64,000 bases of DNA from Streptomyces griseiscabiei. GTDB lineage: Bacteria > Actinomycetota > Actinomycetes > Streptomycetales > Streptomycetaceae. How positions within the stretch are numbered: the first letter of the stretch is position 1; every line of letters begins with the position of its first letter. The stretch spans positions 434,001-498,000 of the forward strand of contig NZ_JAGJBZ010000001.1 in assembly GCF_020010925.1 (NCBI RefSeq), read 5' to 3'. Below the pieces are notes generated by a model. The model saw only the letters and a list, made by a program, of their open reading frames with translations. It searched no databases and had not been told where the DNA came from. Shown piece after piece: positions 45,554 through 45,770 of this stretch. The translations under genes and the position numbers were made by a program.

Positions 45554-45770
45554 GGGGGGGGGGGGGGGGGGGGGGGGGGGGGGGGGGGGGGGGGGGGGGG
45601 GGGGGGGGGGGGGGGGGGGGGGCGCGGGGGGGGGCGCGGGGGGGGGCGGGGGCGGGGGGGGGGGGGCGGCCCCCCCCCCCCCCCCCCCCCCCCCCCCCCG
45701 CCCCCCCCCCCCCCCCCCCCCCCCCCCGGGGGGCCGCCCCCGGCCCCCCCCCCCCGCCCCCCGCCCCGCT
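45554..45770. repeat. Poly-G / poly-C low-complexity tract, probable assembly artefact
   Basis: An unbroken run of 69 G (45554-45622), then G with scattered C to 45669, then C runs of 30 and 27 bases and mixed C/G to about 45770. The order G-block then C-block is a fold-back. Such DNA is not expected to be stable and resembles joined no-signal reads. It coincides with the switch from accessory to core genes. Confidence 0.9.

Follow-up and report, generated by a model that had tools for sequence, protein, structure and literature searches.

A G/C-only tract at the terC terminator of a Streptomyces griseiscabiei contig very probably marks a false join

The G/C-only tract at 45552–45769 of the window (the whole 64,000-nucleotide stretch analyzed here, C1:434001-498000 of a 10.6 Mb genome in 8 contigs) is very probably not chromosomal sequence, and the join made through it between the accessory segment at 1–45553 and terC is very probably false, judging from the gene order conserved in relatives, from which the strain's own order may differ. 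Most likely, the tract is no biological feature, and as biology the place is ordinary. The probable true neighbor of terC is a TerD-like gene close to where this contig stops on the right.

The letters of the tract were read directly, and no strand is assigned to it. A run of 69 G (45554–45622) is followed by G9 at 45626 and 45638 and G13 at 45654. The right part consists of C30 (45670–45699), C27 (45701–45727), G6 at 45728, and C12 at 45744, and the right terminus at 45770 reads ...CCGCCCCGCT. This confirms the sequence-only reading of the same DNA, which had described sixty-nine consecutive G, then mixed G/C and long C runs. Its statement that such a tract is abnormal even for this GC content also holds: the G/C-only span has 218 bases and the runner-up within the 64 kb window has 23, the longest homopolymer outside the tract is 6 (among the top 14 runs listed for the window), and the chance of G69 is about 2e-32 per start at the G frequency of the window (0.347). 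N letters are absent from the 64 kb window. Among named records, those closest to one protein of this genome come from Streptomyces.

The genes on the two sides differ in kind, as had been claimed: Pfam gives an IS transposase on the accessory left side and terC, two TerD genes, and aceE on the core right side. The IS4/5-family transposase (44104–45006, plus strand; Pfam DUF4096 and DDE_Tnp_1) lies at the right end of the accessory segment, 550 bases from the tract, and the final gene before the tract is a small ORF (45269–45541, minus strand) with no Pfam match. To the right, terC for a TerC/DUF475 membrane protein comes first (45798–46943, minus strand; Pfam PF04332 and PF03741; 88% identical in relatives). 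The two TerD genes (47069–47683 and 47813–48388, both minus strand; Pfam PF02342) and aceE for the E1 pyruvate dehydrogenase (50042–52774, plus strand; Pfam PDH_E1_M), which was used as a synteny marker and located by marker search, lie further to the right.

We compared the DNA 3' of terC among relatives to find what normally follows this gene. The terC search found the gene in 39 of the 41 genomes, with 30 loci among the matches listed; 24 same-genus relatives (L002–L025) were compared, excluding the own genome (L001) and other genera (L026–L030). In 23 of these 24, terC has a co-oriented TerD-like gene on its 3' side, the exception being L014. In 22 of the 24, the DNA 3' of terC forms a strong hairpin with GGGGCGG in its first arm; it was not found in L014 and L022, and for L018, an upstream stretch was the first match to the pattern, the hairpin itself being present in the folded piece. 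The terminator of terC in these 22 relatives is an ordinary hairpin with mixed stem and loop. To the right of the tract in the window, the sequence is intact up to the first arm of the hairpin: it reads ...CTCTGAGCGGGGCGG on the terC side and passes into the tract within this arm. The last readable piece, one arm AGCGGGGCGG in terC orientation, occupies 45761–45770 on the minus strand, as judged by comparison of the terC side with the hairpins of relatives.

The missing half is found at the far end of the contig. When a relative's TerD-like protein was used as the query, the gene was located in the own genome at C1:4033701-4034435 on the minus strand with 83% identity, the only other match there having 43%. 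Only 49 bases separate this gene from the right end of C1 (4034484), which reads ...AGCGGGGCGGC, a sequence complementary to the terC terminator arm; the last bases, ...CACCAGCGGGGCGGC, form the second arm of the same terC hairpin. In G007 and G009, one contig each, about 16 kb to the right of the tract and about 16–20 kb of the C1 right end form gapped collinear matches, and the two parts meet at terC. The 20 kb to the left of the tract gave no match at E 1e-10 to this region in G007 and G009, and the flanks of the tract are thus non-adjacent there. The distance from a marker near the C1 end to aceE is 9.8–10.1 kb in G007, G009, G013, and G015. Adjacency of the accessory segment and terC contradicts the conserved order, because the DNA that follows the hairpin in relatives corresponds to the C1 right end, which stops in the second arm. 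The suspicion of a false join raised from the letters is therefore supported by a true-neighbor candidate at a contig end of the same assembly, and the related suggestion that the aromatic island may not lie beside terC and aceE agrees with the conserved order, the accessory island probably belonging elsewhere.

The consequences for the whole contig were considered by cutting C1 at its three big tracts into segments A (1–479553), B (479771–1299436), C (1299538–1891229), and D (1891376–4034484). Markers that we take, from the look of their sequences, to be fumarase, GH42, GH53, manC, gltD, glyS, cslA, NarK, prfB, ftsX, argC, and an aminotransferase were used together with aceE. The positions in G009 are 0.498 Mb for fumarase, 0.508 for GH42, 1.66 for manC, 2.52 for gltD, 2.989 for the D end, 2.9995 for aceE, 3.19 for glyS, 3.69 for cslA, and 3.79 for NarK. 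By these comparisons, the order D–B appears to be right. If the D–B order is combined with the printed succession of B, C, and D, these three segments form a ring, and another join in C1 must therefore be false; the order of C1 as printed is broken at least once more. The second tract is probably the best candidate for this further false join.

A real rearrangement specific to this strain, in which the chromosome broke at the hairpin 3' of terC, possibly by way of the nearby IS, and the tract is a genuine G/C fold-back scar, is very improbable. Such an event could be proposed from the transposase 550 bases away and from the fragility of terminator hairpins, which can be fragile sites. However, both the TerD-like gene and the matching arm of the hairpin are located where a contig stops and not next to other DNA, G69 is unlike the remainder of the window, and a literal C1 leads to the ring described above.

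The own genome holds further G/C tracts, two more on C1 and one on C2. The second tract (L096; C1:1299437-1299537), of the form G-C-G-C, has the second argC-like gene on one side and the aminotransferase of an NRPS-like region on the other. It includes one C-then-G pair, and both orders are thus present in the own genome, a point against the artefact reading. The two argC-like genes, at C1:2932219 and C1:1298541, resemble each other at about 82% over the piece compared, and the copy at C1:1298541 lies at the right end of segment B. The join at this tract is probably false also, with C6 as the likely partner of B on its left side, judging from end sequences and marker order. In G009, prfB and ftsX come after NarK, and in the own genome these two markers are on contig C6; GGGACGGGAGCGGGG stands at the outward ends of both B and C6, and its 15 nt are the best among 276 end pairs. 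The partnership is only likely, because ftsX lies 67 kb within C6 (the distance between NarK and ftsX in G009 is about 18 kb) and no match to the G009 region beyond NarK (3785000–3844999) came from the final 20 kb of C6 or from the other contig ends that were fetched. Named genomes were also searched for the aminotransferase with which segment C begins on its left, and 80 loci were kept. The six of these compared with the B side (L200–L203, L208, and L225) show no match to B, which is weak evidence because the region is accessory.

The third tract (L097; C1:1891230-1891375), between GH53-like and GH42-like genes, appears from its flanking sequences to be a true join between C and D that carries a spurious insert. 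Its flanks match one place in G007, G009, and G013, where the matching parts are 61–105 bases apart; in G015, fumarase and GH42 match at positions far from each other. A tract alone is therefore no proof of a misjoin. The third tract is also a precedent for the idea that the sides of the tract in the window are true neighbors and that only the intervening letters are wrong. This idea is even less probable than a rearrangement: the right flank belongs with the C1 right end, and just 5 nt are common to the outward ends of the two flanks. The short tract on C2 (L098; C2:3882863) lies between two very similar IclR-like genes, and CCGAGGGCCG is common to both of its outward ends.

The sequences shared by contig ends were compared more generally. 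The terC side and the C1 right end have 10 nt in common, which is short, and the terC side and a C6 end likewise share 10 nt. As a control, 30-mers drawn at random from 19 fetched stretches of the own genome were paired; 71 of 40000 pairs have at least 10 nt in common and 2 of 40000 at least 13 nt. The ends joined at the tracts share 5 nt (A/B), 4 nt (B/C), 10 nt (the C2 tract), and 6 nt (the third tract, a true join). A shared arm between ends is a help and not a rule. Among 22 tract blocks of other genomes, the same comparison, run with a filter demanding three non-G letters, showed no clear signal.

The partner of segment A was also considered. Among relatives in the genus, homology to its last ORF ends at about window position 45530 in nearly all loci shown, with different DNA beyond; the best relatives of this ORF are 78% identical in DNA over about 460 bases. 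The family of this ORF is uncharacterised and has relatives in numerous genomes of the genus; a stretch at C2:3841379 is 69% identical to the ORF. No hairpin was identified at the left edge of the tract. The best outward sharing of the A right end with any other end is 8 nt (the C2 left end), which is within chance, and 6 nt are common to the A right end and the C left end. A position of A beside C would fit the order.

Similar tracts are found in other genomes of the genus. Of 150 genomes, 65 carry runs of at least 16 G, and one-contig assemblies are among these. This occurrence could favor a real biological G/C hairpin in the window, such as an extreme terC terminator, which is the least probable of all readings: the terminator is ordinary in 22 of 24 relatives, and none of the 29 terC loci of relatives (L002–L030) has a G or C run of at least 10 at the homologous place. 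G12 followed by C12 within about 30 bases occurs in 46 of 392 genomes, and C12 followed by G12 in 24. Counted per genome, 27 have G-then-C only, 5 have C-then-G only, and 19 have both, an excess of G-then-C with a two-sided binomial p of 1.1e-4. Forward-strand sites number 225 and 100, respectively, or 141 and 44 without G194. That genome has 84 forward G-then-C and 56 forward C-then-G pairs, far above any other of the 392.

Twelve tract loci of other genomes (L099–L110) were picked from the list of genomes with long G runs, and N letters lie at or near the tract in four of them. L103 (G151:C111) and L110 (G129:C432) are copies of one locus, with 98% identity across 2.1 kb, and each has a G run, a gap of 10 and 9 N, respectively, and a C run. 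This pattern is the look of two scaffolded contig ends that ran into G. Like the tract in the window, these scaffold gaps have the G run on the left and the C run on the right; their middle consists of N, whereas the tract in the window is filled without N. The terminator-like arm GGTGGCGGGG, present on both sides of these gaps, was seen by eye, having been dropped by the filter for three non-G letters. L100 (G016:C40) has, at about 1020–1210, a G run, a short sequence, NNNN, and C runs, with CCGCTGAGCGTGTAGCAATTCGTT in the middle and again in the right flank, like a repeated contig end.

Given a misjoin, its origin in poly-G from two-color sequencing is, we infer, quite likely. Reads that enter GC-rich terminator hairpins would lose signal, and a two-color instrument would call the lost signal as G. 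Outward reading from both sides of the stall would then leave a plus strand with G to the left and C to the right. An assembler could link one stalled locus to an unrelated stalled locus through the common poly-G, because all such read tails would be identical. The tract has the expected order on the plus strand, a G run on the left and a C run on the right, and at its right edge it starts in a GC-rich hairpin, the first arm of the terC terminator. The earlier proposal, in which two all-G ends of reads that lost signal abut head to head, gains from the G-then-C signature in other tracts of the own genome and the genus and from the N gap in two assemblies; at the level of reads, an origin in two-color chemistry is likely rather than proven.

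In two papers, no signal in two-color chemistry is described as indistinguishable from G, and poly-G tails remain in reads and hence are trimmed (PMC6637168, PMC9712116). A third associates GGC and inverted repeats with Illumina dephasing (PMC3622629). The tract resembles the poly-G tails of NextSeq and NovaSeq reads in that a long G run starts where signal is lost. Unlike such tails, its G run lies inside a finished contig as a joint between two loci. Repeat-induced misjoins in assembly connect unrelated places through sequence common to both ends; unlike in these, the shared sequence here was probably made by the sequencer and is absent from the genome. A search of the literature on poly-G, assembly, and hairpins found no title on this misjoin mechanism, which does not prove that it is unpublished.

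Gene neighborhoods, clusters, and island boundaries read across such tracts are unreliable. G12-then-C12 tracts, some of which may mark false joins, are present in 46 of the 392 sampled genomes, and a check is therefore worthwhile before synteny comparison or cluster mining. We regard as evenly balanced the broader claim that high-GC terminator hairpins are systematic stall points, that poly-G left untrimmed has introduced false long-range joins in many public assemblies of Streptomyces, including species representatives, and that a shared hairpin arm could reveal the true partner of a contig end.
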